Source: a virus. From it: 25,295 nucleotides of DNA. The stretch lies in IMG/VR virus record IMGVR_UViG_3300025085_000171, positions 1-25,295 of that record. The stretch is one strand, 5' to 3'. A program made the position numbers and the translations under genes. The stretch's first letter is position 1, and each line of letters starts with the position of its first letter. The notes beneath the pieces are model-generated. The model was not told the origin of the DNA, did no database searches, and was given only the letters and a program-made list of their open reading frames with translations. Positions 434 through 23,101 of the stretch are shown here, piece by piece.

Positions 434-670
434 ATGAAAGACGAGTACAGCGGTCAAGGTGGGTCGTATTTTCTCGATCCAGAAACCGGAAAACGCACTC
501 TGATTCAGCGAACACTTCCCGCCGACACCCCACAAGAAAATGGCACCACTTCTCTTACGGAAACGACTGATTCTGATCGAAACAGAGTCGAGCTACGGAG
601 TCGATCCAACTCCAACAGGAACCGACGCGGTTTTGGTGAGAGATCTGAACATCACCCCACAGCAGAGTGA
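434..670 (+). CDS. Small ORF overlapping the tail tube gene
   Basis: 78 codons with a good ribosome binding site (AAGGA, five bases before ATG 434). The first ~36 residues look like a real protein: the stretch GGSYFLDPETGKRTLIQRT resembles short proteins of unknown function found near tail tube genes in many siphoviruses. The remaining ~42 residues run out of frame inside the start of the tube gene (540-670), and their Ser/Asn/Arg-rich composition looks like a by-product of that frame. It may be a small gene that lost its original stop, or a genuine overlapping gene. I cannot assign a function. Translation through it would deliver ribosomes to the tube start at 540, which has no clear Shine-Dalgarno. 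Confidence 0.5.
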   Translation: MKDEYSGQGGSYFLDPETGKRTLIQRTLPADTPQENGTTSLTETTDSDRNRVELRSRSNSNRNRRGFGERSEHHPTAE

Positions 671-1478
671 TGTTGTTAATCGTGATCTGATTCGTCCTTA
701 TCTTGGAGCATCAGAGCAGCTTCTTGCCAACACTCGCGTTGAATGCACGTTCAGCGTTGAGCTAGCAGGATCTGGTACTGCTGGCACTGCTCCGCAGTAC
801 GGCAAGGCGCTTCAAGCTTGCGGCCTTAGTGAAACGGTGGCTGCTGGTACTAGCGTGACTTACGCACCAGTAAGTTCAAATTTCAGCTCAGTCACCATTC
901 ACTACAACATTGATGGCGTTCGTCACAAAGTGACTGGTGCTAGAGGAACATTCACCTTGAATGGATCTGTTGGAGAAATCCCTTCGATTGATTTTACTTT
1001 CACTGGGATCTATAACGCTCCTGACGATTCGGCACTGCCTAGCGTTACTTACGCAAACCAGGCAACACCGCTGATCTTTAAGAACGGCAACACAGACACA
1101 TTCTCCTTACTGTCTTACTCTGGCTGCTTGCAGTCAATTAGTCTAGACATCGGCAATTCTGTTGTTTACCGAGAGTTGATTGGTTGCACGAAGGAAGTGC
1201 TGATCACTGATCGCAGTGCAAGCGGTAGCGTGAGCCTTGAGATGATCTCGATTGCCACGAAGGACTACTTCACTGCTGCTTTAACTGACAACACGCTTGG
1301 CGACTTGACGTTCCAGCATGGCACCACTGCTGGGAACATTGTTGATTTTTCGAGCAGTCAAATCGACATTGGGGACGTGAGTTACGGCGATCAAGACGGT
1401 ATCGCGATGCTGAACATCCCATACACCGCGATTCCTTCAACAGCAGGGAATGATGAGTTCAGCTTGGTGTACACTTGA
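540..1478 (+). CDS. Major tail tube protein
   Basis: 312 aa. This protein would polymerise into the hollow tail tube around the tape measure protein. The N-terminus (PLLLRKRLILIETESSYG, then VRDLNITPQQSDVVNRDLI) and the C-terminus (GIAMLNIPYTAIPSTAGNDE) match the layout I know for siphovirus tube proteins of this type: an N-terminal strand-rich arm, a beta-sandwich core and a conserved closing strand. ATG 540 is chosen because homologues begin at this leucine-rich segment, although no strong Shine-Dalgarno precedes it. It lies after the terminator-like gene and before the assembly chaperones, as in lambda. A hairpin terminator after it fits the need for a high dose of this abundant protein. 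Confidence 0.87.
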   Translation: MAPLLLRKRLILIETESSYGVDPTPTGTDAVLVRDLNITPQQSDVVNRDLIRPYLGASEQLLANTRVECTFSVELAGSGTAGTAPQYGKALQACGLSETVAAGTSVTYAPVSSNFSSVTIHYNIDGVRHKVTGARGTFTLNGSVGEIPSIDFTFTGIYNAPDDSALPSVTYANQATPLIFKNGNTDTFSLLSYSGCLQSISLDIGNSVVYRELIGCTKEVLITDRSASGSVSLEMISIATKDYFTAALTDNTLGDLTFQHGTTAGNIVDFSSSQIDIGDVSYGDQDGIAMLNIPYTAIPSTAGNDEFSLVYT

Positions 1479-1665: not shown

Positions 1666-1983
1666 ATGGCATTCGTTCGCAAAAAGGTCAAGACTTTTAA
1701 GTGGCCCGTGAAAGTTGAGGAGCCTGCAGATGGTGGAGTGTTTGAGACTTCGACCTTTGATGCAGTCTTTAAGCGGGTGCCAACCTCTGAGTTAAAGGAG
1801 AAGGGTGAGTTTGAGCTTTTAGCTCAAGTCGTTTGTGGATGGGAAGGTATTGAGGACGAAGACGGCAAGCCTGTAAAGTTTTCTCAGGAGAATCTAAAAG
1901 AGTTTTCTGAGGACACCTGCTTTGTGCGAGGAATAACCAATGCATACATCGAGTCAATCGCAGGGGCACAAGAGGGAAACTAA
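1666..1983 (+). CDS. Tail assembly chaperone, short form (gpG-like)
   Basis: 105 aa. The layout is that of phage tail assembly chaperones: a basic N-terminus, a strand with VKVEEPADGGVFETSTF, FDAVFKRVP, then WEGIEDEDGKPVKFSQENL and a helical end. Such proteins are absent from the virion; they coat or guide the tape measure protein while the tube polymerises. The stop TAA (1981-1983) follows directly after a slippery heptamer, so a fraction of ribosomes would bypass it and make a longer product. ATG 1666 is the first start after the terminator and lacks a clear Shine-Dalgarno. Lambda gpG is the functional analogue; sequence similarity to it is not claimed. Confidence 0.82.
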   Translation: MAFVRKKVKTFKWPVKVEEPADGGVFETSTFDAVFKRVPTSELKEKGEFELLAQVVCGWEGIEDEDGKPVKFSQENLKEFSEDTCFVRGITNAYIESIAGAQEGN

Positions 1984-2324
1984 GAGGCGCTGTCAAGCAC
2001 TGGCTTGATGGCGGGAAAAGAGTTGATGATAGGACGCACGATGACGCAGCTGCTTTTGGTGTAAAGGTAGTCAGTAAAAAAAAGCCTAAGAACGATACGT
2101 TTGAGGTTTGGGATGAGAATTGGGATACTGTGATGATGTTTTTGCGTATGCAGACCCAGTGGAACGTGACAATGGGTGGTTACGTTGGCTTGAAGTATGA
2201 GGTGTTGCTAGGTGCGTCAGGGCTGATGTCCCTTTATGATGTAGACAATCCCCGTGAGATGCTGGAGGGTCTTCGAGTAATGGAAGCCGCAGCACTCTTA
2301 GAGCTAAACAAGTCGGATAAGTAA
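1666..2324 (+). CDS. Tail assembly chaperone, long form made by -1 frameshift (gpGT-like, DUF1799-type C-terminus)
   Basis: If ribosomes slip back one base at 1974-1980, translation leaves the 105-residue short form and continues LRGAVKHWLDGG, later THDDAAAFGV, to TAA 2322-2324, giving about 219 aa. The added domain carries FEVWDENWDTVMMFL, MGGYVGLKYE and LRVMEAAALLELN, which match the DUF1799 tail-protein pattern I know. The -1 frame has no good start near the junction; its first in-frame start is an internal GTG at 2130, inside the conserved domain. This is the arrangement of lambda G/T, where the T domain links the chaperone to the tape measure protein. The stop overlaps the tape measure ATG by one base (TAATG). 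Confidence 0.85.
1974..2013 (+). promoter_or_regulatory. Programmed -1 ribosomal frameshift signal
   Basis: The heptamer GGGAAAC (1974-1980) is read G GGA AAC in the short frame, which fits the X XXY YYZ rule; slipping gives GGG AAA. The zero-frame stop TAA follows at once. After a 7-base spacer, an 11-bp hairpin pairs 1988-1998 with 2003-2013 (two G-T wobbles) around the tetraloop ACTG. Slippery site, spacer and stimulatory hairpin are all present. Lambda uses GGGAAAG at the same place, differing in one base. Confidence 0.88.
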
Positions 2325-5098
2325 TGGCTGTCAATCCAACCGTATTGGAGATCAAGGCCAAGATTAGTGGTCTGAAAGGTCTTAATCAGCTCAAGTCTTC
2401 TTTGCGGAAGCTAGGAACTGAATCCGTAAATGCTGAAAACACGCTAAAAGGATATACGGCTGAAATCGTAAAATTCGCTCAGAAGACTGGGAACTCCATA
2501 AATTCACTGGAAGCGCAAAAGAAAGCATTTGAAGCTCTTAGACGTTCTGTTGATGTAACTGGTGATGAGTTCAAGCAGGCGGGTATAGAACTTGAGAAGC
2601 TGGACAAAAAACTTGCTAAGGCGGAAGGCCGCAAGCAAGGTGGTGGGCGATTAAGAGGTGCAGCGCAAATTGCTGGTACGGTTGCCGGTGCTGGGGTGTT
2701 CGGTGGACCTGAAGGTGCGATTGGAGCCGCAATTGGCGCAATTGGCGGACCTGCTGGCTCAATCGTTGGCGGTGCTATTGGGGCTCAGGTTGGACAATTA
2801 AGGCAAGCATTGGGCGCAACAGCCGAATATGCGGCAAACCTGAAAAAACTCAGGATTGCCCTCTTGGGTGTCACTACAAGCAATGAGGAGTATGCAAGGT
2901 CTTTGCAGGCTATTGAGCAAGGCACAAAAGACTACGCGATTCCTCAAGACATTCTCACCAGGCAATTTACTAAATTACAGGCTTCCGTCCAGGGTGCTGG
3001 CGGGAACCTAGACGACACTAAAACTGCATTTAATGGAATTGTTGCAGCCGTCCGGGCAACTGGCGGATCGCTGCAAGATGTTGACTCTGCGCTTACAGCA
3101 ACTGCTCAGGTCTTTAGTAAAGGCAAGGTTTCCGCTGAGGAACTGCGTCAACAGATTGGTGAAAGACTGCCAGGTGCTTTCAGTATTTTTGCTGAAAGTA
3201 TTGGCAAAACTCCTCAAGAATTAGACAAAGCACTTGAGGGTGGAAAAGTTAGCCTTCAGGACTTCCAAACCTTCGCCGAAGCATTGCTTGAACGTTATGG
3301 CGAAAATGCAAAAATAATTGCATCTGGACCTGAGTCTGCTGGCGATCGTTTAAAAATTTCACTCTCTAAGCTAAGCGAAAGCGTCGGCGCTTTGCTCGCT
3401 CCAATAGGAAGTGCTTTTCAAGAAACTTTCATAAATGTTGCGGACATTGTAACGAAAGCCACAAGAGCACTTAATAAGTTTTTTGGCGTTACAGATGATG
3501 CCAAAATCAATAAGAATACTGTTCTCATACAGGCCGCGAACAAAAGCCTAGTGAGCCTAAGGGCTCAAAGAGCAAGTATGCAAAAAGAGATGGACGAAAA
3601 GGGCGACTTTTTAGGTACAAGGTCTGGAAGAATCAGAGACTTTGATTTAGACATAAAATCAATAACAGACAGAAGACAAAGGCTTAGGGATGAAATTAAT
3701 TCTCTAACGTCTGGCAGCGTTGATATTCAAAGGCCAGACGAAGGGACAGGTCTTTCCGGTATAGATCTCACGTTCAAGCCTCCGACCGGAGGCAAGAAAG
3801 GAAGAACCCCAGTTGACAGGCGACCAGCTGCACTGGAAAAGCTCCGTAAGCTCATGCTCAAAGTAAGCCGAGAGTTTACAGATATAGGCACTGAGGCTAC
3901 GAAGGTAGGAGCAAATGCAAGAACAAGGATACTCTTAGAGCGAGAACAGGCTTATCAAAAAGTTTTACAGCAAGATCAGGACAGAATTGTTATCATAAGA
4001 CAAGTTTCGGCAGTGACAGGGGAAGCCTACGAAGACGAAATAGCCAAATTAGACAAGCTAAAACAAGCAAGAATTTCCTTAATAAATCAACAGGTAGATG
4101 AGCAACTATTTGCGCAAAGATTGAGCCAATTTGGCATGGATCAAAAGTCTTTTGATCGAAACGGGCAGGCCATTACTGGTTTGGATCAACAAGCCTTCCC
4201 TGCTGATGTTGATAGTATCCTGAATCCAGGCAAAATAACCGTAGCAATTCAAGAGCTAAAGAAGGGTCTTGAAGAATTAACCAATCCAGCGAATCAGGTG
4301 ATTGGTGCAGCAACAGCTATTGGCAGTGCATTCTCTCAGTCGTTTACCAATGCAATCACTGGTGCCACAAGTGCGAAGCAGGCATTGGCTGATTTCTTTA
4401 AGAGTGTTGGTAGCTATTTCTTGGATATGGCTGGTCAGATCATTGCAAAAATGGTGACGATAGCGATTTTAAATACTGCTGTTAAGTTGCTGCCTGGTGG
4501 TGGAGGATTCAATCTTGGGAGCACATCGCTAGGAGCAGGTGGTGGTGAAGTTGGCGGGATAGGAACTTTAGGGCCAAACTTCGGCATCGCTCAACGCGCC
4601 GCAGGCGGCCCAGTAAATGCAAACACTCCTTACATCGTTGGCGAGCGTGGGCCTGAGCTTATGGTCCCCTCAGGTAACGGAACCATTATTCCAAACGATG
4701 TCTTTTCGGCAAGTCGTGCTGCTATTTCTGGCGGCAGCCCATTGGGCCTTGCTGGCGGCCCTGGTGATCTTGGTCAAGACGGAATGGCCGAAAGTCGTAA
4801 TTACATCAACAACAACTACTCAACTCAGCAAGCCATTGCTCAAAGTCAAGCGGCTGTATCGTCAAGCTCTATGTCAATGGAGCGAGTGATCGAACGTAAG
4901 GCAGCAGAACGCCAAGCGACTGAAATGTCAGAACCGATCAGGGTTAAGCTAGATACCACAGTGATCAACAACGTGGAATATCTAACGGTTGAGCAAGGGC
5001 TTGCGCTTTCCGAATCCGCTTCTCGCAAGGCTCGTAGCCAGGTCTTTTCTGATCTAAGGCAGCGGCCTGCATCAAGGTCCAAGGTGGGGCTTGGCTGA
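2324..5098 (+). CDS. Tape measure protein
   Basis: 924 aa. Sets tail length and, on infection, leaves the tube to help DNA cross the envelope. After a coiled-coil N-terminus there is a glycine/alanine-rich hydrophobic stretch (about residues 110-158). Next comes a classic tape-measure domain (about 170-350) with FNGIVAAVRATGGS, FSKGKVSAEELRQQIGERLPGAF and ALEGGKVSLQDF. Long helical segments follow, then a hydrophobic helix near residues 690-725 and the typical motif GERGPELMVPSG (about 772). At roughly 0.15 nm per residue the tail would be about 140 nm long. Its start overlaps the chaperone stop by one base and its stop overlaps the next start, so the genes are translationally coupled. Confidence 0.95.
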   Translation: MAVNPTVLEIKAKISGLKGLNQLKSSLRKLGTESVNAENTLKGYTAEIVKFAQKTGNSINSLEAQKKAFEALRRSVDVTGDEFKQAGIELEKLDKKLAKAEGRKQGGGRLRGAAQIAGTVAGAGVFGGPEGAIGAAIGAIGGPAGSIVGGAIGAQVGQLRQALGATAEYAANLKKLRIALLGVTTSNEEYARSLQAIEQGTKDYAIPQDILTRQFTKLQASVQGAGGNLDDTKTAFNGIVAAVRATGGSLQDVDSALTATAQVFSKGKVSAEELRQQIGERLPGAFSIFAESIGKTPQELDKALEGGKVSLQDFQTFAEALLERYGENAKIIASGPESAGDRLKISLSKLSESVGALLAPIGSAFQETFINVADIVTKATRALNKFFGVTDDAKINKNTVLIQAANKSLVSLRAQRASMQKEMDEKGDFLGTRSGRIRDFDLDIKSITDRRQRLRDEINSLTSGSVDIQRPDEGTGLSGIDLTFKPPTGGKKGRTPVDRRPAALEKLRKLMLKVSREFTDIGTEATKVGANARTRILLEREQAYQKVLQQDQDRIVIIRQVSAVTGEAYEDEIAKLDKLKQARISLINQQVDEQLFAQRLSQFGMDQKSFDRNGQAITGLDQQAFPADVDSILNPGKITVAIQELKKGLEELTNPANQVIGAATAIGSAFSQSFTNAITGATSAKQALADFFKSVGSYFLDMAGQIIAKMVTIAILNTAVKLLPGGGGFNLGSTSLGAGGGEVGGIGTLGPNFGIAQRAAGGPVNANTPYIVGERGPELMVPSGNGTIIPNDVFSASRAAISGGSPLGLAGGPGDLGQDGMAESRNYINNNYSTQQAIAQSQAAVSSSSMSMERVIERKAAERQATEMSEPIRVKLDTTVINNVEYLTVEQGLALSESASRKARSQVFSDLRQRPASRSKVGLG

Positions 5099-10720: not shown

Positions 10721-13700
10721 ATGGCAATCGTTACACCGGGTCAGCCTGGAGCTATTGACAATATTGACATTAGTCAAAACACGTTCCGTACTCAGGCCGG
10801 AGAAGTCACCAGCGCGGTGTTGCGTCTTGCTGGCGGGGAAGTGGACTCAACGTCTACGACAACGCTTTACGTTAACCAGGAGATTGGTTCTGACAAATTT
10901 GTCGCCGGTATCGCAGACAATACGGTAACTCCTCCTCTAAGCAATCAACAACTTACTTGCGGCTACTCGGAGTCAGCACCATTCAAAACCCTCAATAGAG
11001 GGCTAATCGAGGCAGCTCGCTTGTCCGTTCAAAGCGGAGTTGGGAATGATTTGTATGACCGTGTTCTAATCAAAGTCGCTGCCAGCGAATACGTTGTTGA
11101 CAACACTCCGAGCACGGCTCTAACTGTGAGCCAGTGGCCTAATGATTACGAGCCTACCGAAGAAGACCTAAGAGCTTTTAACTCTGACGACATGGGGATT
11201 ATTCTCCCAAGAGGAGTTTCAATCATTGGGGCTGACCTTCGTAAAAGTGTCATACGTCCCAGGTCCGTACCAAGCGCAGGCGGCAATCCAGTAACCGACA
11301 GAGGTAGTTTATTCAAGACCACTGGAGGTTCGTTCTTTTTTAATTTTACTTTTAAAGATTCTCTTACCTATCAATCTTCTCATCACCTGCTTCAAGCCTT
11401 TTCTTTCTGTTCCCAGTCTGATTTAACCGCTTATTACCAGAAAATTGCAACCGCTTTTAATCTTTCATCTTCTGACGTTGAAGTTATAAATCCAGGCGAA
11501 ACACAAATCACCACCGAATACCCTGACAATCAGGTTTCAGCTGCGACAGATTCTGTTAAAGGCAGTTCTGGATATGTTTTTAATTGCAGCTTGCGCTCCG
11601 ACTACGGCATGTGCGGCATGTATCTTGACGGAAGTGATGGTGTTTCAGGACTACGCTCAATGGTCGTAGCCCAGTTCACAATTGTTGCGCTTCAGCGTGA
11701 CATGAATGCTTGGCAGATTTACACAGGAGGCTCTTGGCAGACTTGCAGTGGATACAACGAGTACATAAACGCAGATAGTAATAATGTAAGGTCGCGAATC
11801 TCTGGGAACTTTTCTTCTTCCACTGGATGCTATGAAGTGGATTATAGAAGTTTCGGCTTCAAGGTCACAAATAGCGCATTAACGCAAGAGGTCAGCTGTT
11901 TTGTTATCGGCTCAAACGTGCATCACTGGACGGCCTCAGGCGGAGAATGCACTATTACCAATAGTAATAGTAATTTTGGCAACACGGCTTTACTTAGCAG
12001 TGGTTTTAGAGGTATTGGCACAACAGGTGGCGCGTTTGTCCAAGACAAAGGATTTCAAGCACTTCGTATCCGTAGACCTCTAAAAGTAAAAACAGACGGA
12101 AGCAACATCCGCAGAATCGGAATTGGTAACGTATCTAGCTTGGGATACGACAGTGCAACAGGCGCTATTAATTTACAAGTTGCTTTTGACCCAGAGACAG
12201 CTTTTGCTAACAACGGGTATAGCTTGAAAGAAGGAGACTATATTTGGATTGAAAATAGCAGTCGTTCCGAGGGGCCTGGGGCTTCAACAAGCCAAGCAAT
12301 TGATGTACGAGCTAAGCTGGCCTCTGTGCCTTTTGATTCGGCAAATCCTACTCAGATAATTGTTGTTGACGGAGGTATTGACGACCCTAGCGTAAACAAC
12401 ATCTCAACCATTTCAAACCAAACCTTAGAAGGCAACCGTGTCTACATCAGAAGGCTTTCTGACACTAGGAAACCCGAAGAACGTGAATATTCATTGGTTG
12501 TTTCTGGTAGTGCAACAACTCGCAGGCCCGTAGGAAATTACATTTTACGCTTAGGGAACCGTAGCACCCTCAACCAACAATTAGACCCCACAAATAATCC
12601 AAATGAAGTCTTTATTGTTTCAACTTCAAAAGACTCAGACAACTCTTTTGGCAGCGATGTTTATAAAATTGTTATTCGTCCTGGGGACAGCGCGTCTCCT
12701 TTCAATCCTTCTACTTTTTACAGAGTAGGGACTCCTGTGTCAAGAAACAATAGAGTATTTCGGAGCAAGAGGAACAAAAGATTTAGCACGTTCTCCGCTG
12801 AAAATTTTGAAGCAAGCTTGCCAATGCTCCCTGACGAAAGAGGTGTTGAACTTTTAAGAACATCTTCAGGGCCGTTGTTGATTTTAGATAACGACTTGTC
12901 AAACAGTCCTACGAGTACTGACCTTGGAATAAATCAATCAACAAACAGCTTGATTCTTGATCAAATAAGAAGTAGTACTGATTTTCAAGGCGTAAGTTCT
13001 TTGATGAGAGCAATTGGGTACACGGCTCAAGATGTTGGACTGCAAGAGAACGGAACACTTTCGGGGACTGTTCTTGAGCAACAAGACACAGAAGTATTAA
13101 GAGACTGGAATCCTGCTGATCCTCTCAGCCCTGTACCTTCTGGAAAAATCGACTCTAGGACAAACTGGCCACTAGAGTTTAACCGGCCAAGTCTTATTAG
13201 AGCGTTTGCTCACGCCTATGAGTTTGTTGGATACGGCAATTACACAAAAGCGTTACCAAAGTATCAAGCAACACCGTTGTCTCAGCAAAATAAAATTGAT
13301 TATTTTGCGGTAAACCTGCTAGGTGGTCGCTGCTACAACACTGGATTCAACGAAGATGGCCTTCTAGTTCAAGGCAACGTAATTACGGACCTTGGTACTA
13401 ACCAAACTGTAAACAGTGAAATTGCTGGTTTGGGGGCTCTCGCCGGAGACCCTGATTTTCCGGCAACTCCTACTGATTTTGAAACTTTAAGCGTTACACA
13501 ACTTTTACAGTCTTCTCAGCGTACAGAGTTGACTAACGAAGTACTGATTAACGGAACAATTGAAGGTTCCGTCACATTTGCAGACGGCGTACTGCCTGAA
13601 GCGACAGAAACGAAAAGAGGTATTGTCAAACTTGCAACTGACTCAGATGCTGCAGGAATTAGCAACCCGTCAAATGCAAACGATGTTGACGCATTAACAG

Positions 13701-14341
13701 CAAAAAATCTTGGCTCTGTACGTGGGGTGGCAGATGGTCTCTGCGATCTGGACTCGACCGCCAAAATCCCAGTGGCGAGGATACCCGACCTAGATGATGT
13801 TGGCCTGATTCAAAATGCTTCTACTGCGGCCAAAGGTATTGTTGAGCTTGCTACTGGTGCTGAAACGCTTGCGCTAAGTGATGCAACCAGAACTGTAACT
13901 CCATCGTCACTAAGCAGCGCAAGAGGTGTCGCAAACGGTTTTGCAAGCCTGGATGCAACAGGTCTTGTGCCAACGGCGCAAATCCCGCCAGTTAATCTAG
14001 ATGACGTAATTAAGCTAACGCCTGTAGTTTGGGTAAACGGTTCCACTAATAACTTTGCAAATTCAACAAACTTTACTTTTGTGCAAAACGTAAACAGTGC
14101 TGCGATTGCTTTAGGAACACCGCTGAATGCTGTGCCTGGGACTTCTGGATTTATTTTAGTTACCAGAGCGGCTGGAGTAAATAGGCCATTCACTTCAATT
14201 AATGGGAGCAACTGGTCTGGAGTAGTTAATACATTTGTAAGCCCAATAACCAATTCAGAAGGATTGTCGGGGAACGTGTTGATTGGATATTATGTTGCGA
14301 CTTCAACCAACATAGTTTTCACCGCCTCTATGGTTGCTTAA
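10721..14341 (+). CDS. Large tail fibre/virion structural protein
   Basis: 1206 aa. The N-terminal part contains SAPFKTLNRGLIEAARLS, a motif I know from large virion proteins of T4-like and other cyanophages, followed by right-handed beta-helix-like sequence (IILPRGVSIIGADLRKSVIRP, GYVFNCSLRSDYGMCGMYLDG). The middle (about 450-850) is strand-rich. The C-terminus carries two copies of a tail-fibre repeat and ends in a ~100-residue beta domain (PVVWVNGSTNNFANSTNF, then FTASMVA), probably the receptor-binding tip. It would form a long trimeric fibre or side structure. ATG 10721 follows the stop of a mini-ORF directly (TAAATG) and lacks a Shine-Dalgarno. Confidence 0.75.
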   Translation: MAIVTPGQPGAIDNIDISQNTFRTQAGEVTSAVLRLAGGEVDSTSTTTLYVNQEIGSDKFVAGIADNTVTPPLSNQQLTCGYSESAPFKTLNRGLIEAARLSVQSGVGNDLYDRVLIKVAASEYVVDNTPSTALTVSQWPNDYEPTEEDLRAFNSDDMGIILPRGVSIIGADLRKSVIRPRSVPSAGGNPVTDRGSLFKTTGGSFFFNFTFKDSLTYQSSHHLLQAFSFCSQSDLTAYYQKIATAFNLSSSDVEVINPGETQITTEYPDNQVSAATDSVKGSSGYVFNCSLRSDYGMCGMYLDGSDGVSGLRSMVVAQFTIVALQRDMNAWQIYTGGSWQTCSGYNEYINADSNNVRSRISGNFSSSTGCYEVDYRSFGFKVTNSALTQEVSCFVIGSNVHHWTASGGECTITNSNSNFGNTALLSSGFRGIGTTGGAFVQDKGFQALRIRRPLKVKTDGSNIRRIGIGNVSSLGYDSATGAINLQVAFDPETAFANNGYSLKEGDYIWIENSSRSEGPGASTSQAIDVRAKLASVPFDSANPTQIIVVDGGIDDPSVNNISTISNQTLEGNRVYIRRLSDTRKPEEREYSLVVSGSATTRRPVGNYILRLGNRSTLNQQLDPTNNPNEVFIVSTSKDSDNSFGSDVYKIVIRPGDSASPFNPSTFYRVGTPVSRNNRVFRSKRNKRFSTFSAENFEASLPMLPDERGVELLRTSSGPLLILDNDLSNSPTSTDLGINQSTNSLILDQIRSSTDFQGVSSLMRAIGYTAQDVGLQENGTLSGTVLEQQDTEVLRDWNPADPLSPVPSGKIDSRTNWPLEFNRPSLIRAFAHAYEFVGYGNYTKALPKYQATPLSQQNKIDYFAVNLLGGRCYNTGFNEDGLLVQGNVITDLGTNQTVNSEIAGLGALAGDPDFPATPTDFETLSVTQLLQSSQRTELTNEVLINGTIEGSVTFADGVLPEATETKRGIVKLATDSDAAGISNPSNANDVDALTAKNLGSVRGVADGLCDLDSTAKIPVARIPDLDDVGLIQNASTAAKGIVELATGAETLALSDATRTVTPSSLSSARGVANGFASLDATGLVPTAQIPPVNLDDVIKLTPVVWVNGSTNNFANSTNFTFVQNVNSAAIALGTPLNAVPGTSGFILVTRAAGVNRPFTSINGSNWSGVVNTFVSPITNSEGLSGNVLIGYYVATSTNIVFTASMVA
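13604..14020 (+). repeat. Two tandem fibre repeats of about 69 residues
   Basis: Within the C-terminal part of the 1206-aa protein, residues ~962-1031 and ~1034-1100 follow the same order: KRGIVKLAT / AKGIVELAT, then ALTAKNLGSVRGVADG / SSLSSARGVANG, then DLDSTAKIPVARIPDLDDV / SLDATGLVPTAQIPPVNLDDV. This is the known phage tail-fibre repeat type (GIV-L-A-T ... VTP-x-L). The DNA copies have diverged, so the repeat is old. Confidence 0.75.
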
Positions 14342-15326: not shown

Positions 15327-17585
15327 ATGGCGCTCGATATTGTTCACAAGAAGAGTGGTGTATCCCAAAGGCTTCCGGTCGCTAGCGATCTAGGACTAGG
15401 CGAAATTGCTGTTAATTACAACGCTGACGGCCCATTTCTGACATGCAAAGATACTGCCGGGAATGTCCGAAAAATTAACAATATTTGGGTTAGCGCCACT
15501 GCGCCAATCGGGGCGAGTCCTGGAGACCCTTGGCTTGACACAAGCGTAACTCCGGCAAGGCTTTTTATATATCAAGATTCTTCGACGCAATTCACTCCTG
15601 CAATAACAGTAAACACAGCAACTTCTAGCGCAAGTGGCACTGTTCAGCTTGCTAGCGCAACTGACATTACTAATGGATCACCTGGGCGTGTAGTAGATGC
15701 TTCTCAACTGCAGGCTGAAATCAGCAGCCTTCTTATTGGCGTTAACGCAACATCTCCTTTGGCGGTTGGCGGAAACTCAACCCAGCCAAACATTTCAATT
15801 ACTCCTGGCACGGCAGGCCAAATACTTAGAACCAACGCACAAGGCAATGCGGTTGAATTTACAAGCGATTTAAGCGTTCCTGGAGACTTAGAAGTCATAG
15901 GCGATGTTTCTGTAGGCCCTGGAGCGCCTTCTTCTCCTAGCCTAACTATTCATTCAAACGGCGAGATTACTGCTGGAGCATACAACAATATTGACATAAG
16001 TCGTGGCGGCAATTCTGTTGTAACCAACACAAGTGTAGGATCACAAAACTTAGGCAGCAATACTACTGGGACTGGAAATTCTTCCTTCGGAAGGAAATCT
16101 CTTGAAAGCAATACCGAAGGGAGCGGTAACACGTCTGTTGGGCTTAAATCCCTGCAAGCGAACACAACAGGGCTTAATAATACTTCGGTCGGGGAATCGG
16201 CTCTTGCTGATTGCACAACAGGGTCTAGGAACGTAGCGGTCGGCAATAAAGCAGCAGGTGATCTTATCGGAGGAGAGAGTAATACTGCATTGGGAGTTGG
16301 AGCTTTAAGGCTTTCGACAACAGGAGAATACAATGTCGCGTTAGGGCAAAATTCTGCATACTACTTCAGCGGAAACAATAATACAGTCATTGGGGCCTAT
16401 GAAGGCAATTCAAGCGAAACAGCGATAAGTGATACCGTAGTTATTTCAGCAGGCCGAGCAGAGAAACTTAGAATTAATTCAAATGGATCTCTAATTTTTG
16501 GTGGTTCGTTACCTGCTAACCCCAATATTCGGCTTGATGACAACGGAGATGGAACCTTCGCTGGTTCGGTCACGATTTCAGGTGATTTGACTGTCAGTGG
16601 AACTACAACAACACTGGATACCCAGGATCTTCGGGTTGAAGATAAGAACATTGAGCTTGGCGTAGTGGCAAGCCCCACAAACACAACCGCAGACCTTGGA
16701 GGAATAACACTTAAAGGAGCCACAGACAAAACCTTTAGGTGGTTACAGAGTAGAGAAAATTGGAGATCATCTGAACATTTAGACCTTGCACTTAATAAGG
16801 AATATCGAATCGCCGAGGCAAAGGTTCTAGACGCTACAAGCTTGGGTACAGGCATTGTCGGATCAAGCCTGACAAGTGTCGGCACAATCGCTATAGGTTC
16901 TTGGCAAGGAACTGAGGTCGGAGTTGCGTATGGAGGAACCGGACAGACGACTTATACAGATGGCGAGCTTCTTGTAGGCACCAGCAGTGGGTCATTAGCA
17001 AAAGCCACTATCACTGGTGGCACAGGGCTTACAACTGTTAACGCTAGTGGATCCATTACGCTCAACTTAGACGACACCGCTGTAACGCCAGGAAGCTACA
17101 CAAATGCAGCAATCACGGTAGACCAGCAAGGAAGGATTACGGCTGCTAGCAGTGGAAGTGCAGGATCGTATCTAACTGCTTCAGATATTGGCGTAACTGT
17201 CGAAGCGTTTGACGCTGCAACAGTCAAGGAAGACGAAAATCAAACATTTACTAAAGCTCAGCGTGGAAGCATCACAGCATTAGCCGATGCAGCCAACATA
17301 GCGGTCAATTTAAATGAAAATAATTTTTACAGCGTAACGCTCGGCGGAAATAGGACACTTGACAACCCGACAAACTTAGCCGCTGGGCAATCCGGTTGTA
17401 TTTTCATTAGTCAGGATGGAGTGGGAGGCAGGACACTTGCATTCGGGAGCAATTACGATTTTGCTGGAGGTATTACTCCAGTCCTGTCGACTGCTTCTGG
17501 TGCTGTTGATGTTTTGAGTTACGTTGTCCGTCTGGCCGGAGCAAGCCCTTCAATTATTTGCACACTTGCAACCAATTTTTCTTGA
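15327..17585 (+). CDS. Tail fibre protein with YadA-head-like repeats
   Basis: 752 aa. The N-terminus ALDIVHKKSGVSQRLPVASD with LGLGEIAVNYN is the attachment domain typical of cyanophage fibres. A fibre repeat (GTVQLASATDITNG) follows near residue 103. Residues 235-361 hold eight copies of a 17-residue repeat. A collar-like segment (DLTVSGTTTTLDTQDLRVED, near 419) follows, also common in cyanophage fibres, then glycine/serine-rich beta strands and a compact C-terminal domain (about 640-752: NLNENNFYSVTLGGNRTLDN, SGCIFISQDGVGGRTLAFG). It probably forms a trimeric receptor-binding fibre. ATG 15327 is preceded by a 9-residue mini-ORF ending three bases upstream and by no Shine-Dalgarno. Confidence 0.8.
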   Translation: MALDIVHKKSGVSQRLPVASDLGLGEIAVNYNADGPFLTCKDTAGNVRKINNIWVSATAPIGASPGDPWLDTSVTPARLFIYQDSSTQFTPAITVNTATSSASGTVQLASATDITNGSPGRVVDASQLQAEISSLLIGVNATSPLAVGGNSTQPNISITPGTAGQILRTNAQGNAVEFTSDLSVPGDLEVIGDVSVGPGAPSSPSLTIHSNGEITAGAYNNIDISRGGNSVVTNTSVGSQNLGSNTTGTGNSSFGRKSLESNTEGSGNTSVGLKSLQANTTGLNNTSVGESALADCTTGSRNVAVGNKAAGDLIGGESNTALGVGALRLSTTGEYNVALGQNSAYYFSGNNNTVIGAYEGNSSETAISDTVVISAGRAEKLRINSNGSLIFGGSLPANPNIRLDDNGDGTFAGSVTISGDLTVSGTTTTLDTQDLRVEDKNIELGVVASPTNTTADLGGITLKGATDKTFRWLQSRENWRSSEHLDLALNKEYRIAEAKVLDATSLGTGIVGSSLTSVGTIAIGSWQGTEVGVAYGGTGQTTYTDGELLVGTSSGSLAKATITGGTGLTTVNASGSITLNLDDTAVTPGSYTNAAITVDQQGRITAASSGSAGSYLTASDIGVTVEAFDAATVKEDENQTFTKAQRGSITALADAANIAVNLNENNFYSVTLGGNRTLDNPTNLAAGQSGCIFISQDGVGGRTLAFGSNYDFAGGITPVLSTASGAVDVLSYVVRLAGASPSIICTLATNFS
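16029..16409 (+). repeat. Eight in-frame 51-base repeats coding a 17-residue motif
   Basis: Units start at 16029, 16080, 16131, 16182, 16233, 16284, 16335 and about 16380; the seventh and eighth are shortened. The consensus is (T/S)-(S/A)-(V/F)-G-x-x-(S/A)-L-x-x-x-T-T-G-x-x-N, for example TSVGLKSLQANTTGLNN. This resembles the left-handed trimeric beta-roll repeats of YadA-like adhesin heads. DNA identity between copies is limited, so conservation is at the protein level. Confidence 0.82.
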
Positions 17586-20125: not shown

Positions 20126-20644
20126 ATGACTGTGCTTTCTGATCTTGAGATTATTTCACTGTGCTCCAGTGGAGCGATCGAAGATTGGTCTGAAGATCTG
20201 ATCAACCCGGCCTCGCTTGATGTAAGGCTGGGCAGTGGATTGATGATTGAAGTCGCAGGGCAGAAAGACCTGCTCCATGTTGACATCTCCAGCCGGACAG
20301 AAAAGAACCCTTATCGGTTGACCCCAGGCGAGTTCGTCTTGGCCGAGACTCACGAAACTTTTAAAAAAATACCTGATCACATTTGCGCTCAGTTTGCGCT
20401 GAAATCAAGCAGGGCTAGGGAGGGATACGAAAACCTTCTTGCCGGGTGGATAGATCCAGGCTTCTGCAACAGCAAACTTACCCTTGAATTAGTGAATGTA
20501 AGGCGTCATTACGACCTTCCGCTATACCCTGGCTTGAAAATAGGGCAGATCATCTTTATGAGGATGAGCGAGGTTCCTCTGAAAAGTTACTCGAAAACGG
20601 GTCGCTATAACGGCGACGTAGGGGTCCAGGGCAGTAAAGGTTAA
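20126..20644 (+). CDS. dcd: dCTP deaminase
   Basis: 172 aa. Converts dCTP to dUTP and ammonia, the first step toward dTTP in this route. Family motifs are clear: NPASLDVRLG (27-36), FVLAETHETFKKIP (70-83), SSRAREG (94-100), AGWIDPGF (106-113) and LTLELVN (118-124) with likely catalytic Glu121. PLYPGLKIGQIIF and the C-terminal YNGDVGVQGSKG lid complete the picture. Length is close to bacterial Dcd. A bifunctional dCTP deaminase/dUTPase is possible, since no separate dUTPase is seen in the window. The gene lies 12 bases after the endolysin on the late strand, while thyX, the partner enzyme, is on the opposite strand. Confidence 0.92.
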   Translation: MTVLSDLEIISLCSSGAIEDWSEDLINPASLDVRLGSGLMIEVAGQKDLLHVDISSRTEKNPYRLTPGEFVLAETHETFKKIPDHICAQFALKSSRAREGYENLLAGWIDPGFCNSKLTLELVNVRRHYDLPLYPGLKIGQIIFMRMSEVPLKSYSKTGRYNGDVGVQGSKG

Positions 20645-20688: not shown

Positions 20689-21321
20689 GTGACAGCTGAG
20701 TTCAGGCAGTGTCGAAGAAGCAGTCTGTGCCGGGAGTACCTCAGCACAGACCTAATGAAGCATGAAAAAAATGGATGGGTATGCGATCCTCACATGTGCC
20801 CCCGGAGGGTGCCGGAAAGTAATAATTCTTATCAAGTCGAAAAACGCTATCTGACAACAGCGAGAATCATGTTTCTAACCTCGGCCAAAGAGGACCAAGA
20901 CCCTGAAGAGTTTAGTGAAATATTTGCATCAAGACTAGAAGAGCTGACTGAGGAGATAGTAAGTTTTGACCTAGAAGTTGTGCCGTTAAATGGCGGTTTT
21001 ATTGGTCATGAGATCATAGGGTCCGAACTTGTACCTAAAAAAGCAAGCAAACACAGGTTCAGAAAGCAGATTTTAGACGAATGGGATAATCGCTGCGCCT
21101 ACTGCGGCCAGCCCGGTGACACGCTGGATCACATTCTTGCTAGATCTAAAGGCGGCAGTATGAGCGTCACTAATAATCTCTTATGCTGCTGCAGGTTTTG
21201 CAACGGATCCAAGAGCGATAAACCTGTATGGGAATGGTTTAGGGCGCAGCTTTTTTGGAGTCAAGAACGTGAAGACCATATCAAATACTGGATGGAGCAT
21301 GGAACTTTGGATCAGCCATAG
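20689..21321 (+). CDS. HNH endonuclease with N-terminal four-cysteine motif
   Basis: 210 aa with GTG start (an in-frame TGA lies just upstream). The C-terminal domain holds CAYCG (C136, C139), DTLDHILARSKGG (D147-H148), TNN (N162/N163) and CRFCNGSKSDK (C168, C171, N172, K175), the standard zinc-bound HNH nuclease layout. The N-terminus has C8, C14, C32 and C37 (CX5C...CX4C), an extra zinc-ribbon-like element. Residues 60-115 are helical linker. In phages such genes are often free-standing homing-type or packaging-associated nucleases; this one sits alone at the end of the late block, far from terminase. Its 3' end overlaps a - strand gene by 41 bases. Confidence 0.87.
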   Translation: MTAEFRQCRRSSLCREYLSTDLMKHEKNGWVCDPHMCPRRVPESNNSYQVEKRYLTTARIMFLTSAKEDQDPEEFSEIFASRLEELTEEIVSFDLEVVPLNGGFIGHEIIGSELVPKKASKHRFRKQILDEWDNRCAYCGQPGDTLDHILARSKGGSMSVTNNLLCCCRFCNGSKSDKPVWEWFRAQLFWSQEREDHIKYWMEHGTLDQP

Positions 21322-22082: not shown

Positions 22083-22379
22083 TCAGTCGTGATTTAAGAT
22101 CACGTCTTGCTCTAAGGACTGAAGCTCTGAAGCAGCGCATAGTCTCATTTGGTCGTGCTCGGATGATGAGTTGAAGCCATCCCAGCGAACGGCGAGATAC
22201 TTGCGCTGATGGCCGTCTTTTCTGGTTTTGGTCCTAAGCTCTGTTACCGTGCCAATCCTCGACGAATATCGACGCTGATTCTCTGGCTTAACAGCAATGC
22301 CAAGATGAATGCGAGGTTTTTCCGCAACTCGATCGCCAACGGAGAACTTGAACGGTGTGCGGCGTGATTCTTTTGTCAT
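22083..22379 (-). CDS. Small SH3/KOW-like hypothetical protein
   Basis: 98 aa from ATG 22379, which overlaps the thyX stop (ATGA); the frame is open upstream but that part lies inside thyX. The core FSVGDRVAEKP, SSRIGTVTELRTKTRKDGHQ and YLAVRWDGF reads like a small SH3-type barrel as in KOW-motif proteins (GDRV...GTV...V-W). It ends with a polar helix (ASELQSLEQDVILN). Such barrels bind RNA or protein. Similar short proteins occur in cyanophages. The coupling to thyX suggests co-expression, not a shared pathway. Confidence 0.7.
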   Translation of the reverse strand: MTKESRRTPFKFSVGDRVAEKPRIHLGIAVKPENQRRYSSRIGTVTELRTKTRKDGHQRKYLAVRWDGFNSSSEHDQMRLCAASELQSLEQDVILNHD

Positions 22380-23101
22380 GGTGCTAAGCGGGCCTTGCCC
22401 CAGCGATTTTTTGTGTACCAGTCGTGAACTGGTGGGATCCACTCTGCGAAATGCGGCATCATCAACTGGCACATCTGATGAATTTCTATCTGCGCATCCG
22501 CCTTGCCCCGCAGGTCGAGGAAGTGCATAAGGCTGCGCAGGTTGAACGTTACGACAAAATGCTGTCGGTAATCAAACGGCAGCACTCCTCTAACGTGCTC
22601 CTCTGATATGCCAGCATCAAGAGCTTCCTTGTAACGCCGGGCTGAATCCTCGCAGTGCTGCAGATCCTTGGCCCGTAGCCGCTCGTCGTATGTATATCGC
22701 TTGCCCTGGCGATTGGTGTAATCACCAACAGGTCGCAGGTAAAAAGCTTCCTCGACATCGACAACGCCCTCAGCTACAGCAGCGATTCGCTGGCCGGTAT
22801 AGCGCATGGACTGAACGTCCCAGCTGGTGCCCACCCTGTGAGTCCGAGCTTGTTGGATTACCGAGTGAGGGAAATAGCCAACAGCAAATGTGATACTGGC
22901 GTGTTCCAGTGGGCCGTAATGTCCGCGACCTCCCAAAAGCAGGTGCTTTACGATTCGATCACCAGCGTCTGGCTCGCTCAGTGGTTCGTCATGGAAGACC
23001 CAGCCCTCGCTGTAGTCCTGATGCATCGCCTGCCAGCAAAGTGTTGCAGGATCCTTGGTCTGACTTAAAACGCCAACCTGGAAATAAGGGTCAATTTGCA
23101 T
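22376..23101 (-). CDS. thyX: FAD-dependent thymidylate synthase
   Basis: 241 aa. Makes dTMP from dUMP using methylene-tetrahydrofolate, FAD and NADPH. Seen in the sequence: HYGPLEHASITF (61-72), the ThyX signature region QQARTHRVGTSWDVQSMRYT (83-102), and a C-terminal FNLRSLMHFLDLRGKADAQ (about 188-206) that completes the flavin/dUMP site in this family. The signature is the variant seen in cyanobacterial ThyX, RTHR followed by eight residues before the serine, where the classic motif is RHR-X7-S. ATG 23101 has GGAG seven bases upstream. It overlaps neighbours on both sides (11 and 4 bases). With dCTP deaminase it would raise dTTP supply for phage DNA synthesis. Confidence 0.96.
   Translation of the reverse strand: MQIDPYFQVGVLSQTKDPATLCWQAMHQDYSEGWVFHDEPLSEPDAGDRIVKHLLLGGRGHYGPLEHASITFAVGYFPHSVIQQARTHRVGTSWDVQSMRYTGQRIAAVAEGVVDVEEAFYLRPVGDYTNRQGKRYTYDERLRAKDLQHCEDSARRYKEALDAGISEEHVRGVLPFDYRQHFVVTFNLRSLMHFLDLRGKADAQIEIHQMCQLMMPHFAEWIPPVHDWYTKNRWGKARLAP

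Follow-up and report, generated by a model that had tools for sequence, protein, structure and literature searches.

Two overlapping open reading frames lie between the tail tube and tape measure genes of a marine-type phage, and the first ends in a stop codon that directly follows a potential slippery heptamer. Are the two frames joined by ribosomes that slip back by one base at this point, and does the adjoining stop take part? The locus was studied in a 25.3-kb virus record, possibly a fragment, which was analyzed over its whole length of 25,295 nucleotides and is called the window below. Tail chaperone genes expressed by −1 frameshifting are textbook knowledge. From the sequence evidence assembled here, this junction is very probably a −1 programmed ribosomal frameshift site at which the two parts of a tail assembly chaperone gene are joined.

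The junction in the window

The 3′ end of ORF1 reads ...GAG GGA AAC TAA, which places the heptamer in phase as G_GGA_AAC. The initial annotation had reported this phase, the zero-frame stop directly behind the heptamer, a 7-base spacer and an 11-bp hairpin, and all four were recovered (Table 1). Translation of the −1 frame from position 1974 gave GKLRGAVKHW... with a stop at 2322-2324. The first ATG, GTG or TTG of this frame is a GTG at 2130, within the DUF1799 domain, in line with the claim that the −1 frame encodes a conserved chaperone domain with no start nearby. The predicted fusion junction, ...E-G-N-L-R-G-A, is correct from the sequence, and the heptamer differs by one base from that of lambda, read as GGGAAAG.

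The gene order tail tube, ORF1, ORF2 and tape measure is the canonical location of the lambda G/GT pair. The locus has what is looked for in tail chaperone genes: two overlapping ORFs between the major tail and tape measure genes, an in-phase X_XXY_YYZ heptamer, kept in relatives, close to where ORF1 terminates, and an ORF2 in the −1 frame without a conserved start of its own. GGGAAAC occurs five times in the window versus 2.9 expected occurrences, and the heptamer alone is thus not rare. A chance occurrence was ruled out by its phase, the flush stop, the domain encoded behind it and its conservation in every close relative, and not by rarity.

Table 1. Position of the putative frameshift site, its parts and its neighbouring genes in the window
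Feature	Position	Strand	Basis or remark
Major tail tube protein, upstream neighbour	540..1478	+	PF18906 Phage_tube_2, E = 2.2e-24
ORF1, short tail assembly chaperone, gpG-like, 105 aa, ending ...AQEGN and stop	1666..1983	+	ATG at 1666
AGGGG, possible Shine-Dalgarno-like stimulator	1962..1966	+	7-11 nt upstream of heptamer; weak
Slippery heptamer G_GGA_AAC	1974..1980	+	phase from ORF1; conservation in relatives
ORF2, −1 frame, DUF1799 (T1 gp39-like) extension, predicted fusion to ORF1	1974..2324	+	PF08809, phrog_680
Zero-frame stop TAA adjoining heptamer	1981..1983	+	flush in relatives too
Spacer UAAGAGG, 7 nt, heptamer to hairpin	1981..1987	+	sequence and fold
Candidate stimulatory hairpin, 11 bp, 4-nt loop	1988..2013	+	fold energy
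Tape measure protein, downstream neighbour	2324..5098	+	PF20155 TMP_3, E = 5.2e-24

Elsewhere in the window, a small ORF at 434-670 (MKDEYSGQGGSYFLDPETGKRTL...) overlaps the start of the tail tube gene; it had no phage match by tblastn, and Synechococcus phage S-LBS1 has a short ORF in a similar place. Large tail fibre-like proteins are encoded at 10721-14341 and 15327-17585, the first of which matched the tail fiber families phrog_529 and phrog_4527. Further genes encode a dCTP deaminase-like protein (20126-20644, + strand), an HNH endonuclease (20689-21321, + strand) and a ThyX thymidylate synthase (22376-23101, − strand). The host is probably not an enterobacterium, and the window gave no close DNA match to known phages.

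Protein family assignments

ORF2 is a member of the DUF1799 family (PF08809; E = 6e-16, 58.9 bits at a cut-off of 26) and also matched the tail family phrog_680 (E = 4e-22). ORF1 matched two PHROG families, the tail family phrog_569 at E = 1.1e-16 and the tail assembly chaperone family phrog_313. Its score with Phage_TAC_4 (PF08748) was 19.1 bits, below the Pfam gathering cut-off of 21.1, and ORF1 is not counted in that family; T1 gp40 matched the same model at 2e-37. The models of lambda G (PF06894) and lambda T (PF06223) found no match in the window at E ≤ 0.01. Neither sequence searches of the PDB nor Foldseek run on an AlphaFold model of ORF2 (pLDDT 81) yielded a relative. Judged by these assignments, the pair belongs to the T1 gp40/gp39 (DUF1799) family and, as far as sequence tells, works like lambda G/GT without membership of the lambda G and T families.

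Conservation of the junction in relatives

Relatives in IMG/VR were located by peptide patterns that excluded the junction. In the best 80 of them (63-100% identity), GGGAAAC followed by a zero-frame TAA or TGA at distance 0 was present in 80/80. Six (L062, L063, L066, L074, L075, L080) carry in addition a TGA in the −1 frame one codon before the heptamer; with the zero-frame stop downstream, this confines the shift to approximately 10 nt. More distantly, GGGAAAC or AAAAAAC with a flush stop was found in all 11 cultured phages at 26-42% identity, including S-CBS1, RC1, PS-1 and phiES15, the hosts of which are Synechococcus, Rhodobacter-type bacteria, Pseudomonas, Cronobacter, Pantoea and Aeromonas. 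T1, Rtp, Motto, SO-1 and others have the same arrangement. The claim of a −1 programmed frameshift between tail chaperone ORFs is thus borne out by synteny, domain content, phase, the lack of a conserved ORF2 start and conservation as far as coliphage T1. An alignment of 15 diverse members offered no conserved stretch for a degenerate search. One apparently broken copy (L415) has an in-frame TAG near position 1320, within the DUF1799 domain.

The flush stop across the DUF1799 family

Among 423 loci collected with a domain HMM and derived from seeds, 397 had GGGAAAC or AAAAAAC with an abutting stop. Clustering at 60% identity left 71 clusters, of which 60 were flush and 68 had an AAC-ending heptamer. 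The seed-derived loci were checked by a scan of 398 Pseudomonadota genomes with the Pfam model, the span of which leaves out the heptamer: RRRAAAC was present in 29 and flush in 25 of the 30 loci inspected, one of the 30 being the seed genome. In 103 flush representatives, the codon after the heptamer was without exception CTA or CTG, and the next base completed a stop; as a downstream control, 31 of 293 CTN codons in the same reading frames would make a stop in the other frame. The residue after the leucine varies (I, T, K, R, A, E, S) within the set that leaves the stop intact. A tree was made with these columns omitted, and on it at least 28 changes of stop identity and at least 37 changes of residue 4 were counted versus approximately seven changes of flushness. 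In our reading, these observations reflect purifying selection on where the stop lies.

Exceptions were a group with the stop 24 nt away (L157-L160, L163, L164, L166, L170, L180), closer stops at 9 nt (L314) and 3 nt (L303, L337), and individual loci with the stop at 9, 27, 54 or 105 nt. Stops at distances of 3-105 nt show that a flush stop is not essential.

Two further kinds of junction were observed. Klebsiella Webervirus relatives and similar IMG/VR records (L167, L171-L179 and L548, Klebsiella phage Sin4, near 960-974) have no X_XXY_YYZ heptamer; their junction is of the type GCA AAA GTT TAA versus GCA AAA AAC TAA in T1, with ORF2 still in the −1 frame. The Sin4 record carries the pair as a frameshift fusion, which might form by single-tRNA slippage on A_AAA. 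The junction of L156, around 1080-1100, contains a run of nine A's, and its two ORFs stand in another frame relation, for which transcriptional slippage or an assembly indel is possible.

Flush arrangements had been seen before in single genomes, and the present counts point to a family-wide rule. The open-access literature yielded no statement of such a rule, and the sole open-access paper found to name DUF1799 does not mention frameshifting. RRRAAAC with an immediate stop is an exact, searchable signature for annotation of a gene pair that is often mis-started, T1 included.

Hairpin and other candidate stimulators

The arms of the hairpin (1988-1998 and 2003-2013) form 11 bp, including two G-U pairs, and enclose an ACUG loop. 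Its fold energy was −17.1 kcal/mol (z = −4.5), and 0 of 200 dinucleotide shuffles were as stable. The window clade shows one clear C-G/U-G/U-A series of pairs at 1994-2007, and most relatives pair this region three bases out of the register of the window. Of five measures, only two, cells paired and covariation score, placed the register of the window clearly above its shuffles; the number of compensated pairs showed no excess over shuffles (261/500), and no compensatory change was found in relatives for the alternative register. For 103 representatives, folding at the junction was slightly stronger than in synonymous-codon controls, with a mean z of −0.41, and +0.34 in a downstream control window.

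By these measures, the hairpin appears weakly conserved and would not be part of the conserved core; in the window clade, it is likely to stimulate frameshifting. Downstream structure is not universal among tail-chaperone frameshift sites. The "complete cassette" of the initial annotation is complete in the window, where all parts are present, but the term overstates what is conserved, as the hairpin is weakly favoured across the family and shifts its register. The alignment of relatives that it proposed as a check likewise upheld the heptamer, present in each of the best 80 IMG/VR relatives, and not the hairpin to the same degree.

A Shine-Dalgarno-like purine tract was enriched family-wide, with a mean anti-SD duplex energy of −4.06 versus −3.11 kcal/mol in a control window (p = 9e-4). 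The enrichment is mild and may be driven by codons or protein sequence.

Proposed mechanism and possible role of the flush stop

Translation through G_GGA_AAC would mostly end at the UAA behind it, with the 105-aa short chaperone as the product. A minority of ribosomes would slip, their tRNA-Gly and tRNA-Asn pairing anew with GGG AAA, one base upstream, as they translocate off the heptamer or shortly thereafter with UAA waiting in the A site. Shifted ribosomes would continue with CUA AGA GGC GCU... and add the 114-aa DUF1799 extension (L R G A ... K), resulting in a fusion of approximately 219 aa. In lambda, the tape measure protein is coated by the short form, and tail tube subunits are brought in by the long form (PMC5009743); by analogy with gpG and gpGT the two products of the window may share these roles. 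We infer that slippage occurs, as well as its efficiency and the roles of the short and long forms.

A flush stop would expose the slip to competition by release factors. According to Horsfield 1995, as described in PMC4373837, a stop right after the HIV slippery sequence reduced frameshifting in bacteria, and an excess of the cognate release factor abolished it; the slip was taken to occur while the stop occupies the A site. By analogy, release-factor binding at the flush stop may compete with the slip and help to set the ratio of short to long form, a plausible proposal to which we give about an even chance. Selection for the flush stop may act on this ratio, on pausing, or merely on the end of the short protein.

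The base by which the heptamer differs from that of lambda is functionally important: AAG-ending heptamers shift far better in E. coli than AAC-ending ones (PMC5009743; PMC4066793). This counts against frameshifting in the window, although IS1 makes productive use of A_AAA_AAC at approximately 2% and the host of the window is probably not an enterobacterium. None of the non-AAC tail-chaperone sites examined was flush: the stop lies 15 nt downstream of GGGAAAG in lambda and 18 nt downstream in a lambda relative, 18 nt away in an AAAAAAG member, 21 nt away in three pyrimidine-type sites of the Phage_TAC_18 family and 3-39 nt away in P2-like sites. The comparison sites are few in number: lambda plus a single relative, one AAAAAAG member, three Phage_TAC_18 sites and seven P2-like sites, one pair of which is duplicate. 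Of the Phage_TAC_18 sites that use AAC, those of KL1, Loki, phiCbK and L558 were flush and that of L561 was not. A Fisher test of AAC against flushness gave 1.8e-5 with families mixed and before the P2-like controls were added, and states an association only; inside DUF1799 alone, the association was not significant (p = 0.13). Flushness accompanies AAC heptamers, mostly within one family, and the association is confounded with ancestry. The lambda G model found no match in 229 genomes, and the lambda T relatives in IMG/VR were nearly all identical to lambda, which left no diversity for a control comparison. IS1 and the members with the stop at 3 to 54 nt ruled out that a flush stop is obligatory behind an AAC heptamer. 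The same RRRAAAC-stop cassette occurs in a second Pfam family, the extension of KL1, Loki and phiCbK (L552, L553, L554) being Phage_TAC_18 (PF23812).

With nearly an even chance, the flush stop stands outside the shift mechanism and is kept only because the short chaperone must end exactly at ...(G/K)-N; ribosomes would then have slipped along the usual A/P-site or translocation route by the time they reach the stop. The persistence of lineages with stops 3, 9, 24, 27 and 54 nt downstream is consistent with this explanation, as are the Webervirus lineage, which keeps a near-flush stop despite the loss of the heptamer, and the A_AAA_AAC of IS1, which works with a stop 15 nt away. The consistent lack of flush stops at the non-AAC sites argues against it, with the same confounding by ancestry.

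A more far-reaching reading is that RRRAAAC-stop in DUF1799 and in AAC-using Phage_TAC_18 chaperones forms a distinct −1 cassette with an active abutting stop. A heptamer that otherwise slips poorly would then do so mostly while the stop occupies the A site, where release factor competes. We regard this as rather unlikely. If true, it would tie tail-chaperone stoichiometry to the termination capacity of the host and represent a −1 counterpart of the prfB "shifty stop". The natural series of junctions (flush, +3, +9 and +24 nt; AAC versus AAG or UUY) is suited for testing the role of the stop in E. coli with T1.

Alternatives to ribosomal frameshifting

GenBank contains separate ORF2 coding sequences with internal starts for T1, S-CBS1, S-CBS3 and others, which would fit the production of ORF2 as a protein of its own by internal initiation or termination-reinitiation. 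This is very improbable. The possible −1-frame starts in relatives are scattered, the first lying 30-162 nt into ORF2 at non-homologous places, and in the window the start lies inside the conserved domain. All of 40 diverse members share the −1-frame residues K2-L3, which lie 5′ of any start; the region upstream of any ORF2 start is thus under selection in the −1 frame. In S-CBS1, S-LBS1, S-CBS3 and T1 (L082, L083, L087, L545), ORF2 is annotated from an internal start and without a frameshift, and misses the first residues of the −1 product including the invariant K-L, and in T1-like Klebsiella phages a frameshift is annotated at this junction. Homologues with a normal ORF2 start, which the initial annotation had named as evidence against its reading, were looked for and none was found; the GenBank starts are scattered internal codons with the heptamer upstream of them.

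Formation of the fusion by transcriptional instead of ribosomal slippage is less probable still. AAAAAAC contains a run of six A's, and L156 has nine with its different frame relation; GGGAAAC has three A's only and interchanges with AAAAAAC in the family, which fits re-pairing of tRNAs and not slippage of the polymerase. That a sequencing or assembly indel split one gene in this single metagenome-derived record is practically out of the question and already refuted by the relatives, as the arrangement is repeated in 80 independent contigs and in many separately sequenced cultured phages.

Comparison with known systems

The G/GT frameshift of lambda was reportedly described by Levin in 1993 and by Xu, Hendrix and Duda in 2004. 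The predicted ribosomal frameshifting at the junction of the window resembles it in its position between tail tube and tape measure genes, the −1 direction, the G_GGA_AAN heptamer and the predicted short and long chaperones. The two differ in the last codon of the heptamer (AAG in lambda, AAC in the window), the distance to the stop (15 nt versus 0 nt) and their Pfam families. IS1 insA-insB likewise uses an AAC-ending heptamer (A_AAA_AAC) for −1 frameshifting in E. coli; unlike the window, its stop is 15 nt downstream, its efficiency is approximately 2% and the product is a transposase.

Flush stops have been reported in two phages, Burkholderia phage KL1 (gp18/19; GGGAAAC directly 5′ of TGA, reported in 2012, PMC3483164) and Acinetobacter phage Loki (gp12/13, Loki/IME_AB3; AAAAAAC adjoining the stop, reported in 2017, PMC5313236), and both were confirmed in the sequences. 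Caulobacter phage phiCbK has AAAAAAC flush with TAA like the window. In all three, the extension is Phage_TAC_18 and not DUF1799. GGGAAAC tail sites have also been reported for Caulobacter phage Colossus and haloarchaeal HCTV-1; these two and phiCbK differ from the window in host and genome type.

The Synechococcus siphophages S-CBS1, S-CBS3 and S-LBS1 share the flush RRRAAAC-stop and are among the closest cultured relatives of ORF2 (31-42%). They differ in their AAAAAAC heptamer, and in GenBank their ORF2 has an internal start without a frameshift. T1 gp40/gp39 (Drexlerviridae; Phage_TAC_4 and DUF1799) has the same −1-frame domain, gene order and RRRAAAC flush with TAA. Its heptamer is AAAAAAC versus GGGAAAC in the window, where ORF1 is sub-threshold for PF08748 and ORF2 is distantly similar to its T1 counterpart. 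The site of the window represents one more example of a tail-chaperone frameshift, a kind that is very widespread in long-tailed phages.
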